DNA from: a virus
DNA length: 51,270 nucleotides
Virus record (IMG/VR): IMGVR_UViG_3300050821_007428
Location: 1-51,270 of that record
Strand: one strand, 5' to 3'
Numbering within the stretch: position 1 is the stretch's first letter; each line of letters starts with the position of its first letter. Positions 8,931 through 46,469 of the stretch are shown piece after piece. A program made the translations under genes and the position numbers. The notes beneath the pieces were generated by a model. The model was not told the origin of the DNA. It was given only the letters and a program-made list of their open reading frames with translations, and ran no database searches.

Positions 8931-8972
8931 TGTGACGTAGTTCCTGACGTCCCCGTCAGTTTGAGGTATCCT
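8931..8972 (+). promoter_or_regulatory. Promoter/operator (site C) for the zinc-binding protein gene
   Basis: CTGACG (8944-8949), a 17-base spacer, then TATCCT (8967-8972). CTGACG with CGTCAG (8954-8959) forms the dyad with a four-base centre. The upstream TGTGACGTAG (8931-8940) is repeated exactly before sites D (40638) and B (40841), so a whole promoter cassette is reused. The gene it drives begins at 9003. Confidence 0.7.
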
Positions 8973-9002
8973 GGCGTCACTGAATCCCAAGAGGGTATAG
9001 AC

Positions 9003-23095: not shown

Positions 23096-23530
23096 TTAGA
23101 TGGGAAAGGATGTCAAATCTTGATATTCGAGAACTGCGGGGAAAGGGTCAATGACCTTTTTCGCACTCGGCAATCCCTGTGAATTTTTGAAAAACACAGT
23201 CCCGAGTTTGAATCCGAGACTGATAGACGGATACAGGATATTTCCCGTTGCAGCGAACTGTTCCTTTGCTGCCGTAATTGCAAGCGCCCAAGTCAAAAAC
23301 ACATTCAACGCGATACTGTCGGGCTGCAACATGACAGTGATCCGTTTCGGACTCGGGGTATATCCTGCCGACAAAACGCCATCTACTCCCATGCGCGTTT
23401 CGGCAAGGTCGAACGCCTCTTGAGTAAATGCGTCATCAGCCGCATATCCCTGCAACAGTTGTGGGATGGTCCCAAATACACTAGGGACAACCAGTGCAAA
23501 ACTGGAATTAGCTGAGGTAATCGTACCCAT
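23096..23530 (-). CDS. Tail tube protein
   Basis: This encodes 144 residues, directly downstream of the sheath. Size, the beta-rich character and a mid-region RITVMLQPDSIALNVF fit the contractile-phage tube family (DUF3277-like). The tube forms the inner channel through which DNA passes. Position carries most of the weight. Confidence 0.75.
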   Translation of the reverse strand: MGTITSANSSFALVVPSVFGTIPQLLQGYAADDAFTQEAFDLAETRMGVDGVLSAGYTPSPKRITVMLQPDSIALNVFLTWALAITAAKEQFAATGNILYPSISLGFKLGTVFFKNSQGLPSAKKVIDPFPAVLEYQDLTSFPI

Positions 23531-38251: not shown

Positions 38252-38260
38252 AAAAATAAA

Positions 38261-38289
38261 CTGACGCTACTGTCAGTCTCGGTTATAGT
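38261..38289 (+). promoter_or_regulatory. Promoter/operator (site A) of the plus-strand gene between terminase genes
   Basis: CTGACG (38261-38266), 17-base spacer, TATAGT (38284-38289). CTGACG with TGTCAG (38271-38276) makes the shared dyad. TAGGAG serves as ribosome-binding site before the ATG at 38313. Confidence 0.75.
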
Positions 38290-38312: not shown

Positions 38313-38726
38313 ATGCCTAAAGTAAATCCACACGATAAGATCAATTCTCATCATCGTTCTATCGCGGTCGACTACATGGGCGACGTAAATGCAGGAACAG
38401 TCATCGGTCGACTGTTCGGGATATACGATCTCAAGAGACGACAGATAGGCGCCTCAGCAGAATTATTTACCATACGTACCCGAGCTATCATTTCGGGTAG
38501 CCACGATGACGAACGGACTTGCTCTTACTATGCACTGCCTGCGGGCACATACTATTGCTATAAACCTCATACACTACGCGACGGAAAACCATTCGGCGCG
38601 ATCAAACCCACCCAATGGTTCACAACAGAAGAAGATCGAACCCAGGCGGTCAACACTTATTTCCGCGACGCAGCCAAACGCGCGTTGAAACCCTATAGCC
38701 ATGGGGGTTATGCCAGTTCCAGATAA
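38313..38726 (+). CDS. Plus-strand insert gene between terminase subunits, unknown
   Basis: This encodes 137 residues with its own promoter and a good TAGGAG site. The product is basic with a central YYALPAGTYYCYKPHTLRDG and a C-terminal helix NTYFRDAAKRALK. I do not recognise it. It is opposite in strand to both neighbours and overlaps the end of the small terminase gene by 19 bases. It shares its promoter type with the early blocks, so it is probably an independently expressed early cargo gene. Confidence 0.8.
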   Translation: MPKVNPHDKINSHHRSIAVDYMGDVNAGTVIGRLFGIYDLKRRQIGASAELFTIRTRAIISGSHDDERTCSYYALPAGTYYCYKPHTLRDGKPFGAIKPTQWFTTEEDRTQAVNTYFRDAAKRALKPYSHGGYASSR

Positions 38727-39592
38727 AGCCGTTGAGCCTGCTCGGCGGTCATCTCACTCGCAGCCTTAGCCGCATTAATAGCCACTGTAGCCCCCGCAGC
38801 GGCACCAGCCGCAGCACCGCGCGCAACACTAGCCGCATCATCCCCGTAGATCCCTCCGGCCCGCAGCAGCCGCTCTTTGGCTTTATCGATGTCATGGAGT
38901 ATGACCTCAGTTCCAAACGATGTATGTTTTACCCCCTTGACGATAACTCGGGCCGGCCCCTGGAGTTTCGTCGTATCTGCGATGAGCGTGACGGCATTAC
39001 CGCGTCCCTCGCACTGAGGACAGGTAATGACCGGGTCCGCGCCAGATGAGTAGCCATAGCCTCCCGCGTCGTCTGGTAGAGATAATTTTCTGAGTCTACC
39101 TTCATTCTGTTCGTCCACCTTTGCCAATGCCAAACAGTACTCGGCTAGATCGATCCATTGGAATTTGTGGTCGATGCCGTAGCAGTATCTGCAACACTGC
39201 CAGATATGTTGGGATATCTGATCAGCGTACTTATAACCTTCTACGATAGCCCGGTCATGCTCGAGGATCGCCGCGTAATCAATCACCACAGCTGCGGCAG
39301 CGGCGGATTCATACTCTCGTACGCGATGAAGGATATGCGGCCGATTCGACATCTCCCACGCATTGGTTCGAGCCTGTGCTCGGGTACCAACGTAGTTAGT
39401 GGCCTCGGTATACGCTCGGGTCGCGTTATTATAGAGAACAAACAACCGGGCAAATGCTTCCTCAATTTCATTCAATGGTTTAGATAACTCAACTAGCTGA
39501 GCCCGTTGTCTAACTCCTAATGCATCCACGGTAACCAACTCGCGTGAATTCGCACGAGTTAGTTTCTTGTGACCACTACCCCCGCCAGACAT
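38708..39592 (-). CDS. terS: Terminase small subunit
   Basis: This encodes 294 residues. ATG 39592 with GGAAG five bases upstream is preferred to a GTG at 39604. The N-terminal part has NEIEEAFARLFVLYNNATRAYTEA and a repeated tyrosine-rich helical pattern of small terminases. QCCRYCYG with CPQCEGRGNAV offers a zinc-ribbon-like DNA-binding unit. It should recognise the packaging site. It is the first gene of the late block. Confidence 0.8.
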   Translation of the reverse strand: MSGGGSGHKKLTRANSRELVTVDALGVRQRAQLVELSKPLNEIEEAFARLFVLYNNATRAYTEATNYVGTRAQARTNAWEMSNRPHILHRVREYESAAAAAVVIDYAAILEHDRAIVEGYKYADQISQHIWQCCRYCYGIDHKFQWIDLAEYCLALAKVDEQNEGRLRKLSLPDDAGGYGYSSGADPVITCPQCEGRGNAVTLIADTTKLQGPARVIVKGVKHTSFGTEVILHDIDKAKERLLRAGGIYGDDAASVARGAAAGAAAGATVAINAAKAASEMTAEQAQRLYLELA

Positions 39593-39609
39593 GATACTTC
39601 CCACGTATA

Positions 39610-39660
39610 GAGTTTAGAAACTCGATATATCTAAGATATAGGTTATCTTAGGATTCGCAA
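39610..39660 (-). promoter_or_regulatory. Late-block promoter with dyad operator
   Basis: On the minus strand TTGCGA (39660-39655), 16 bases, TATCTT (39638-39633). CTAAGATA and TATCTTAG (39631-39638, 39644-39651) form a perfect 8-bp dyad over the -10 and spacer. GAGTTT/AAACTC (39610-39623) is a second palindrome near the expected start of transcription. These dyads differ from the TTGACG family, fitting separate late control. Confidence 0.5.
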
Positions 39661-39684
39661 GCCCCATTTTCCCCGCACACTCCC

Positions 39685-39807
39685 CCAGACAACTGATCAC
39701 TATATTGATTAGGCATTGATTTATTTTAAACGTGCGGGTAAGATAGTTTATAAAGGATTAGAGACACATAAATAAATCCCTAACCAATATGGTGATCAGT
39801 TGTCTGG
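39685..39807 (+). repeat. Long imperfect inverted repeat at the block 3/4 divergence
   Basis: Arms 39685-39713 and 39779-39807 match over 29 bp with two mismatches, starting CCAGACAACTGATCAC. A further 9 bp (39718-39726 with 39770-39778) pair after a four-base offset. The 43-base centre is AT-rich. It could be a MITE-like element, a replication origin, a packaging signal near terS, or an RNA hairpin in the leader of the gene at 39826. Confidence 0.85.
39716..39744 (+). promoter_or_regulatory. Promoter of the right-hand early block
   Basis: TTGATT (39716-39721), 17 bases, TAAGAT (39739-39744), placed within the inverted repeat. The transcript would carry the right arm in its roughly 75-base leader. 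Confidence 0.55.
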
Positions 39808-39825
39808 AGAACATCTGTGGAGAAA

Positions 39826-40647
39826 ATGACTCGACGGGAAGCCTTATCTTTAGGACGAAGGCGTTTCTATACAGGAAAGCCATGTAAATACGACCACGAC
39901 AGCGAGCGATACACCACTAGCGGGGCATGTGTCGCCTGTACAAACCCTAAATTAGATGTGGCCGCGCTACCTCCGCCATTAGAAAAGGTAGAGCTGCGTC
40001 CGGGGTATTGGGTAACGAAGTTATCCCAGGAAGAAGCATATGCCAAAGGATGGCGGGTTTTTTTTACAGGCCAACCCTGCAATGAAGGCCATCTAGCCGA
40101 ACGTAGCGTAAGAGACGGTCGTTGCCTGGAATGTATGCACCCCCCTCGGTATGGCGTACATGCTGAAACGGGTTGGTGGGCATTTCAACCGAAACCCCCT
40201 TTACGTGTTCCGCCTAATACGCCTCTATCCTTTCATAAGAGATTGGCCGAAAAGCTCCAGGGAGAAATCCCCCGGCTGGTAAAAGAGATAGAGGTTGAAC
40301 AGAAAGTCACTATCCCCGCACCCCATGAGACCTCCGTTATCTACGGATTGCTTCACATTCATACCGGCCAGATGTGGGAGGGATTGAAAGTCTGGTGGCC
40401 GCGTATGGAAAGATTCAGTGACCGATTCGATAAACGAATCGTATCTCCTATGGTTCCCTGGGTAGAACGCGACGGCATATGGTATGGGATTATGTCTAAT
40501 TCAGAATTGATTCCCGTCCTATCACCCGAGACTCAATACGAGAAGTACGATCCCCAGGAGGGCCGGCGCAAGTCCCAAGCCGAAAGTCGCACTGCAGCTC
40601 GGATCTATCGAAAGCTGAATCCGCAGGAAAAAGAAGATGTGACGTAG
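39826..40647 (+). CDS. Protein with two HNH-associated zinc modules
   Basis: This encodes 273 residues; ATG 39826 has GGAG five bases upstream. Two related modules are visible: FYTGKPCKYDHDSERYTTSG with CVAC after it (about 13-38) and FFTGQPCNEGHLAERS with CLEC (about 78-103). This F.TG.PC..H...R...C..C unit is common at the front of phage HNH nucleases, but I see no HNH core here. The C-terminal half has KRLAEKLQGEIPRLVKE and GRRKSQAESRTAARIYRKL helices. DNA binding is likely. Confidence 0.75.
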   Translation: MTRREALSLGRRRFYTGKPCKYDHDSERYTTSGACVACTNPKLDVAALPPPLEKVELRPGYWVTKLSQEEAYAKGWRVFFTGQPCNEGHLAERSVRDGRCLECMHPPRYGVHAETGWWAFQPKPPLRVPPNTPLSFHKRLAEKLQGEIPRLVKEIEVEQKVTIPAPHETSVIYGLLHIHTGQMWEGLKVWWPRMERFSDRFDKRIVSPMVPWVERDGIWYGIMSNSELIPVLSPETQYEKYDPQEGRRKSQAESRTAARIYRKLNPQEKEDVT

Positions 40648-40679
40648 TTCCTGACACCACCGTCAGTCTCGGGTAATCT
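40638..40679 (+). promoter_or_regulatory. Promoter/operator (site D), leaderless type
   Basis: CTGACA (40651-40656), 17 bases, TAATCT (40674-40679), with CGTCAG (40661-40666) completing the dyad. TGTGACGTAG precedes it at 40638-40647. Seven bases separate the -10 from the ATG at 40687, so transcription should start at the ATG. Confidence 0.7.
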
Positions 40680-40686
40680 AGCCCCC

Positions 40687-40845
40687 ATGCACTACAAACA
40701 CCCCAGTTACATCAGCGGCAATACCCCGGCATGCATGACGATCCGTCGCAATCGGGGTCCAGTCTTCGGAATTCGCACGACCTCCGATAAATCGTGCGTA
40801 ACCTGCGAAAGCTGCAAGCGAACGAAGGTATTCGCCAAACTGTGA
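40687..40845 (+). CDS. Small Cys-containing protein, 52 aa, probably leaderless
   Basis: There is no ribosome-binding site; the ATG coincides with the predicted transcription start. The basic peptide ends SCVTCESCKRTKVFAKL with a CxxCxxC cluster. Unknown function. It is flanked by two copies of the same promoter cassette. Confidence 0.6.
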   Translation: MHYKHPSYISGNTPACMTIRRNRGPVFGIRTTSDKSCVTCESCKRTKVFAKL

Positions 40846-40882
40846 CGTAGTACTAGACTGACGGTAGCGTCAGTTTTATACT
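40841..40882 (+). promoter_or_regulatory. Promoter/operator (site B)
   Basis: The dyad CTGACG-GTAG-CGTCAG (40858-40873) is perfect. TATACT (40877-40882) is the likely -10, with TAGACT (40854-40859) as a 17-base-spaced -35, so the dyad covers the spacer. TGTGACGTAG lies at 40841-40850, including the previous stop codon. Confidence 0.6.
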
Positions 40883-44449: not shown

Positions 44450-44691
44450 ATATGGAGCTAAAACGCGCTTATTACACGACCGAGGTTGATCCGCCCCAAC
44501 GTATCTTCCACAACCTGAGAACGATTCCATCGCGGGCTAAAAATCTGTGGTTCCTGTCGGATCTCAGCACCGATACGAAGTTTGTATTCCTGAACGCCGC
44601 AAGAGGGATACGAGTAATTCGTACCGCCGCAGAAGGCTGGACCCGGGAGGACGCGGATACATTTCATCTCTGGCTGATGCGACACGGGTGA
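44446..44691 (+). CDS. Small unknown protein, 81 aa
   Basis: ATGA overlap start. The sequence is alpha/beta, with AKNLWFLSDLSTDTKFVFL and a C-terminal WTREDADTFHLWLMRHG. No family recognised. Confidence 0.65.
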   Translation: MNMELKRAYYTTEVDPPQRIFHNLRTIPSRAKNLWFLSDLSTDTKFVFLNAARGIRVIRTAAEGWTREDADTFHLWLMRHG

Positions 44692-45044
44692 AACGGAACC
44701 AACGACTGCGGAAGATGCTGCTACGTGGATATGAGCCCGCATGGCTCAGAGATCATCCGCGTCGACGGTATATACGGGCTGCGGTCCTTTCTATCCCCGA
44801 TTGGGTTAATTGGACCTTAATTCAGCATATTCATGCTATGAAACGTTTTCTAACGTCTCAGACCGGCGTAGAGCACGTAGTAGACCATGAAATTCCACTC
44901 AACCATACGATGGTCTGTGGACTTACGGTACCTGAGAACCTACGGGTCATCACTCGATCTCAGAACAATGCTAAATCGAACCATTGGAATCCGGATCAGT
45001 TAAAACTAGACTTGGATCACAGACTGGAGTCTGATCATGAGTGA
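44688..45044 (+). CDS. HNH endonuclease-like protein
   Basis: This encodes 118 residues from GTG 44688 (GTGA overlap). EHVVDHEIPLNHTMVCGLTV then PENLRVITRSQNNAKSNHW is the HNH pattern: H in VDHEIPL, central N, and terminal N/H. The basic N-terminus (RGYEPAWLRDHPRRRYIR) could contact DNA. It may nick DNA for packaging or act as a free-standing homing-type nuclease. Confidence 0.8.
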   Translation: MKRNQRLRKMLLRGYEPAWLRDHPRRRYIRAAVLSIPDWVNWTLIQHIHAMKRFLTSQTGVEHVVDHEIPLNHTMVCGLTVPENLRVITRSQNNAKSNHWNPDQLKLDLDHRLESDHE

Positions 45045-45661: not shown

Positions 45662-45925
45662 ATGAAAAGTGCGGCTTTCGTCGCGGTTCTCGTGGTAGTG
45701 TTCGCCTGCTGGGTCGGCCGGGGTCTCAAATCCCTGAGTACGGCCGACTCAGTTCGACATCTTACTAAGAGGACTCACGATGACCAACGTTACTGGTACC
45801 GTTACTTTTACACTGCCCGCTCCGATCCCCGGGCCAGCCGGCCCAACCGGTCCTACTGGGGCTGTCGGTCCCGTAGGACCTCCTGGGCCAGCTGGCCCCC
45901 CAGGCGCCGCTACCGCCCCCATTGA
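45662..45925 (+). CDS. Doubtful short membrane peptide
   Basis: The first 25 residues (MKSAAFVAVLVVVFACWVG) look like a signal or membrane segment. The second half overlaps the collagen-like gene in another frame and looks like its shadow. No ribosome-binding site. Low confidence. Confidence 0.25.
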   Translation: MKSAAFVAVLVVVFACWVGRGLKSLSTADSVRHLTKRTHDDQRYWYRYFYTARSDPRASRPNRSYWGCRSRRTSWASWPPRRRYRPH

Positions 45926-46469
45926 CCTCAATGCCCTCGCTCAACAAGTTGCTGCGATCCTAGCGACACCTCCGGTTACTCCACCTCCTGCTACCGGTAG
46001 GATGTGGCTATATCACGACGGCGTATTCAGCGGTGCAGGCGATTACTCCTACGGTTCAGGTTCGATCAAATACGGCGTTCCTGATCCGGCCGACGCCAGT
46101 GTACTTACGGTCGAAGTCCTCGGAGATGAGGGCTGGCAGCCTCGTATGCCTGGAGATGATTTCAACTCAACCGGTTTTACCATTCTCACGGTCAAGATCA
46201 AGCCCACTGAACCCGGGTCGACGTGGACGGCAGGAGTCGAAGGCATCGGCGATACCAACATCCCGAATCCGTCGAACGGGCCGGTCAATATCATGCAGTT
46301 CGGTCCGAATCCGGCAATTGTCGGCCAGTGGAATGAATACAACATTCCTCTCACAGCGCTGGGTCTCGTAAACGGAATCCACTGCTACAAAGCCGCGTTC
46401 CAGAATCAGTCCGCCGCCAATCCGGCAACTGATGTTGTGTACTTCAATGACGTAGGCTTCGTTCCGTAA
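45780..46469 (+). CDS. Collagen-like surface protein with C-terminal beta domain
   Basis: This encodes 229 residues. Residues 16-43 are Gly-x-y collagen repeats (GPAGPTGPTGAVGPVGPPG). A helix DLNALAQQVAAILA and a Pro linker follow. The C-terminal 150 residues (GRMWLYHDGVFSGAG, GEGW-like DEGWQPRMPG, WNEYNIPLTALG, VVYFNDVGFVP) read like a carbohydrate-binding jelly roll. The gene lies in an early-type block, far from the fibres, after a dyad CTGAGT/ACTCAG near 45734. AGAGG precedes the ATG. Confidence 0.7.
   Translation: MTNVTGTVTFTLPAPIPGPAGPTGPTGAVGPVGPPGPAGPPGAATAPIDLNALAQQVAAILATPPVTPPPATGRMWLYHDGVFSGAGDYSYGSGSIKYGVPDPADASVLTVEVLGDEGWQPRMPGDDFNSTGFTILTVKIKPTEPGSTWTAGVEGIGDTNIPNPSNGPVNIMQFGPNPAIVGQWNEYNIPLTALGLVNGIHCYKAAFQNQSAANPATDVVYFNDVGFVP

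Follow-up and report, generated by a model that had tools for sequence, protein, structure and literature searches.

A long inverted repeat, constant in place and variable in sequence, at the small terminase divergence of an apparently uncultured phage group

Introduction

What is the long inverted repeat that lies in the gap between the small terminase gene of a phage and the gene that diverges from it? The element belongs to a viral record, IMGVR_UViG_3300050821_007428, whose 51,270 nucleotides were analyzed as a whole and are called the window below. A first-pass annotation of the sequence had proposed an origin, a packaging site or a MITE-like element. Ribosome-binding-site hairpins and leader hairpins are already known in phages, and a search of open-licence papers returned no report of this repeat. 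Here we describe its geometry, its occurrence in related phages and the readings that these data allow.

Results

Geometry and setting of the repeat

The junction of the window comprises the following features.

38708..39604, minus strand: small terminase gene terS (start GTG 39604 or ATG 39592; phrog_51, E = 4e-8)
39610..39623, strand not assigned: small dyad GAGTTTAGAAACTC in the terS leader (from sequence and fold)
39631..39651, strand not assigned: small dyad CTAAGATATAGGTTATCTTAG near terS (from sequence and fold, by eye)
39685..39724, plus strand: left arm of the long inverted repeat (from the repeat search)
39716..39744, plus strand: candidate promoter TTGATT-17-TAAGAT, spanning left arm and loop, no better than chance
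39725..39767, plus strand: AT-rich loop of 43 nt, containing GCGGGTAAGATAG
39768..39807, plus strand: right arm, whose end CTGG overlaps a possible Shine-Dalgarno sequence CTGGAG
39817..40647, plus strand: divergent zinc-finger gene (start GTG 39817 or ATG 39826; phrog_1081, E = 3e-28, in two stretches)

The whole element measures 123 bp. Its 40-nt arms pair at 36 of 40 positions (90% complementary) across the 43-nt loop, and in a gapped search the pairing extends weakly to 50 pairs, up to the start codon. When the whole window was scanned, the junction repeat was its top-scoring close repeat, with a score of 60; five shuffled sequences of 51 kb reached 28 at most. It folds far better than shuffled sequences both as single-strand DNA (z = -7.4) and as RNA (z = -7.0), none of 200 shuffles being as good in either case. 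These results agree with the first-pass annotation as regards the position of the repeat, its AT-rich centre, the absence of a gene inside it and, exactly, its arms, described as 29 bp with two mismatches (the outer 29 nt) followed by 9 further pairs. The significant element that it placed beside the small terminase start does adjoin terS. That the repeat also abuts the start of the zinc-finger gene, lying between two head-to-head genes, is a point absent from that annotation. Several relatives have TAAG..CTTA dyads close to terS, as judged by eye.

The match of the terS product to Pfam Terminase_2 is below the family cut-off; its relative in L003 is 62% identical. Leftward, beyond terS, come the large terminase and then the portal genes. 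The zinc-finger gene encodes two CKxGH...CxxC domains (phrog_1081); a PDB sequence search with the protein gave no match, and a fold search with a model of it gave nothing below E = 1. The replication genes of the phage form a T7-like set (polymerase, exonuclease, gp2.5-like protein and primase). A search for integrase, whose control worked, was negative for the window and 11 related records. No DNA similarity to known phage and plasmid records was detected, a profile scan of genome contigs with the terL alignment yielded no relative, and no cultured member of the phage group was found.

Other elements of these genomes were recorded in passing. A CTGAC...GTCAG dyad is repeated in the window (8931-8975, 38258-38285, 40638-40682 and 40841-40873), several copies lying beside gene starts; the two 45-nt copies can be read as promoter-like CTGAC[A/G]-17-TAATCT/TATCCT with the dyad in the spacer. 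Similar elements recur in most relatives searched, with 16 motif matches in G004. Many relatives carry clusters of TTGCAAG/TTGCATC heptad repeats, placed at the terS junction or close to it and ahead of neighbouring genes (among others G002:26855-27524 and G003:43415-43441); the window has no such clusters. The window also holds a nuclease-like gene at 44547-45044 (endonuclease VII match, phrog_1035, E = 2e-6) and, at 45780-46469, an open reading frame weakly matching tail-fibre families, with a G+C-rich repeat (45831-45898) that looks collagen-like by eye.

Recurrence of the repeat in related phages

Relatives, mostly known from metagenomes alone, were collected by terS, terL and zinc-finger searches. 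Contigs with a terS relative and either a divergent zinc-finger gene or a long junction repeat were included, which gave 17 distinct contigs with the window, the near-identical L034 and L035 being counted once. A junction repeat above the shuffle range was present in the window and 11 of the 16 relatives (L003/L011, L004/L012, L032, L034, L037, L038, L104, L105, L106, L043/G013 and L055), a frequency of 12/17 that is somewhat overstated because L043 and L055 entered on account of their repeat; among contigs picked solely by the divergent terS/zinc-finger pair, 10 of 15 were positive. The weakest positives were L104 (score 26 versus a shuffle maximum of 23) and L106 (28 versus 22). Repeats in L026, L028, L029, L030 and L031 were weak or absent, not clearly above shuffles; L026, L028 and L031 have short weak versions, which end at the start codon in L026 and L031. 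The trait requires five changes on the terS tree, indicating that losses or repeated gains occurred.

The zinc-finger gene is not always the neighbour. In L043/G013 the repeat is kept without this gene, 157 nt ahead of the next start, and in L055 it lies about 115 nt ahead of the next start. The divergent gene beside terS in L055 (479-1258) encodes a five-fold CxxH...GxCLxC zinc-finger-like protein distinct from phrog_1081, which occupies the same place and has a long inverted repeat of its own. Most terS relatives without the zinc-finger gene showed no comparable repeat, L016 having short repeated inverted copies. No repeat was found upstream of the phrog_1081 genes of the cultured out-group phages FoX2, SppYZU01, ZX22, KpTDp1 and Vibrio 1.181.O, and none comparable in the cultured phages with a distant terS (Itty13 and DC1). 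Close repeats of equal strength were rare elsewhere in the other genomes and contigs of the group that were scanned. In G001, the genome of L003, small indels split the junction repeat, which is gapped, and another repeat, rich in G+C and located at 23444, is the strongest ungapped one. Separately, a perfect 22-bp inverted repeat with a 15-nt loop lies upstream of another CKxGH-containing gene on an unrelated contig, in an unrelated setting (L108:870-928).

Structure kept while the sequence drifts

Arm sequences are mostly not alignable between phages, yet their pairing persists, and the flanks do align. The closest comparison is that of L032 with L034, which differ at only two of the first 57 nt on the terS side and whose inner arms and loops align in register (MAFFT, structure not used). 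Of the 19 pairs that the two share, 6 had both partners replaced, none had a single partner replaced and one was lost; controls with slid partners gave 0-2 double changes. As only two sequences are compared, the double changes may stem from a small number of events. L003, L032 and L034 have the loop core GTTAAG in common, within GGTTAAGRT in L032 and L034 and GTTAAGAT in L003, to be compared with GCGGGTAAGATAG in the window. Short upstream reading frames occur in the loop of some phages and by eye are not conserved.

Template switching is known to create and homogenise inverted repeats (PMC8794818, PMC8604942), and double changes without single ones fit this process as well as they fit selection. 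Template switching during replication, together with selection for pairing, is the probable means by which the arms remain matched. That shape and place are conserved while the letters differ points to a real, putative regulatory structure rather than a stray mobile element. According to the first-pass annotation, arms neither conserved nor repeated anywhere would speak against the element; this is what we observe for sequence, but as an expectation it is misleading, since conservation here concerns structure and place.

Promoters and predicted access to the zinc-finger start

Promoter scans of the junctions gave a leftward terS promoter (p = 0.016); before the left arm they gave no rightward one (combined p = 0.51), the top-scoring rightward candidates lying within the repeat itself (p = 0.10). 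In the window, the promoter described as good in the AT-rich centre survives as the best rightward candidate, TTGATT-17-TAAGAT, but a consensus scan finds none there, and the score of the candidate does not exceed that of composition-matched shuffles (p = 0.13). With rightward candidates inside the repeat and none to its left, an RNA carrying the full hairpin may not exist. Mismatches in the arms were equally often of the sense G-U type (8) and of the antisense A-C type (8), so that selection on the RNA strand is not apparent.

In 5 of 10 cases examined, the 3' arm extends as far as, or over, the ribosome-binding site or start codon of the zinc-finger gene. The outer right end of the repeat is at or next to one of these in the window, L003, L004, L032 and L037, and 16-23 nt before the start in L034, L038 and L106. 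Accessibility was taken as the predicted unpaired probability of the start region in the full leader versus a leader beginning in mid-loop. It was 0.04 versus 0.69 in L037, 0.32 versus 0.60 in L004, 0.16 versus 0.45 in L003 and 0.22 versus 0.41 in L032, with a modest difference in the window (0.30 versus 0.44); the loss of accessibility in the full leader is strong in L037, L003 and L004 and smaller in L032. The predicted accessibility of the start region changes little or not at all in L034, L038, L104, L105 and L106. Predicted folding hides the zinc-finger start in about half of the phages.

Discussion

Candidate readings of the repeat

We tentatively read the repeat as a structure-based control element of the rightward early unit, acting in the form of a hairpin RNA, and give this reading a probability of about 0.4. 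The zinc-finger gene would be the first gene of the rightward early transcription unit. An RNA with both arms would form a long hairpin in which the translation start of this gene is masked or altered, or which is cleaved by a double-strand RNase; an RNA starting in the loop, without the left arm, would keep the start accessible, as happens in T4 gene e. We infer that both RNAs exist and that they differ in translation. Against a purely RNA-based reading stand L043, which retains the repeat without the zinc-finger gene, the lack of a visible rightward promoter left of the repeat and the equality of G-U and A-C mismatches. On balance we keep to a structure-based control element of the early unit and favor its hairpin-RNA form over a DNA-level element and over an origin or packaging site.

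A DNA-level element, a dyad around an early promoter recognized as an extruded hairpin, cruciform or long operator, with the neighbouring zinc-finger protein as a possible binder, is not very likely. It would account for the overlap of the top rightward promoter candidates with the repeat and for the absence of G-U bias, and a drifting sequence with kept structure suits recognition by shape. L055 pairs a different multi-zinc-finger gene with its own long repeat at the same place, and the zinc-finger domain is shared with phage proteins that carry endonuclease VII or HNH nuclease annotations. However, no nuclease motif is visible by eye in the zinc-finger proteins studied here, the protein model matches no solved structure and the repeat is present in G013/L043 without the zinc-finger gene. 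Moreover, the loops measure 21-59 nt, a length that disfavors cruciform extrusion. The most specific version is a long shot: a sequence-free operator recognized by its shape. In this version the zinc-finger protein would bind the hairpin or cruciform extruded at the promoter of its own gene, and early or terminase expression would thereby be coupled to DNA topology or replication state. If true, such an operator would leave the arm sequence free to evolve.

Unlikely too is a replication origin (a single-strand hairpin for primase or annealing) or a packaging site beside terS. The repeat always adjoins terS, persists in G013 without the zinc-finger gene and belongs to a phage with a T7-like replisome (primase, gp2.5-like protein and polymerase); but such sites are usually recognized by sequence and the arms differ between relatives, five of which lack a clear repeat. 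Nor does the repeat coincide with contig ends, and the skew signal is confounded by gene direction.

It is quite unlikely that the repeat is a functionless by-product, made and kept matched in a non-coding gap by template switching. This process produces and homogenises inverted repeats (PMC8794818, PMC8604942), in keeping with the two-sided alteration of all six changed and paired positions of L032/L034. It sits poorly, however, with the finding of repeats at one junction in 12 phages, comparable strength being rarely reached elsewhere in the scanned genomes, and with the loop core retained in L032, L034 and L003.

Extremely improbable, finally, is the MITE-like or other mobile element of the first-pass annotation, which the terminal-inverted-repeat look and the gene-free 123 bp had suggested: no second copy was found in the window or any collection searched, relatives carry different, unrelated arms at the same junction, no consistent direct repeat (target-site duplication) is seen by eye at the arm ends, and an exact arm match (22 specified bases) is absent from 2.9 million viral contigs and 85,000 species genomes, collections that may lack records very near the window.

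Three further identities do not fit the repeat. The repeat is not an intrinsic terminator, having no G+C-rich stem with a T run and no T run after either arm. It matches no Rfam family at the gathering score, the sub-threshold hits being microRNAs only and caused by the hairpin shape. Its 43-nt asymmetric loop is unlike a protelomerase (tel) site, a palindrome without a long asymmetric loop.

Significance and comparison with known systems

New here is a long repeat that keeps its place at the terS divergence while varying in sequence, within a group of phages apparently not yet cultured. It offers a natural case of a putative regulatory region whose sequence turns over while structure and position are kept, and lets one ask directly if a functional hairpin can be maintained by template switching during replication combined with selection for paired arms. 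It also provides an initial clue to the phrog_1081 zinc-finger family, which is widespread and uncharacterised.

Long RNase III hairpins, in which structure outweighs sequence, are found in early leaders such as the lambda N leader and T7 early RNA. The repeat resembles them as a long hairpin in an early leader and differs in that the spanning RNA and its cleavage are conjectural here. Folding of the RNA masks the ribosome-binding site of T4 genes e and 49, and internal late promoters of gene e yield an RNA without the 5' arm that escapes the hairpin (PMC3014915). With the hairpins of T4 gene e, gene 49 and soc (PMC3014915) the repeat shares, in some of the phages, a 3' arm at the ribosome-binding site; unlike them, the present repeat has arms that look much longer and vary in sequence among relatives, and the start lies outside the arm in about half of the phages. 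As in template-switched quasi-palindromes (PMC8794818, PMC8604942), both arms change together and are homogenised; those papers treat mutation rather than function, whereas here the place is conserved across a phage group.
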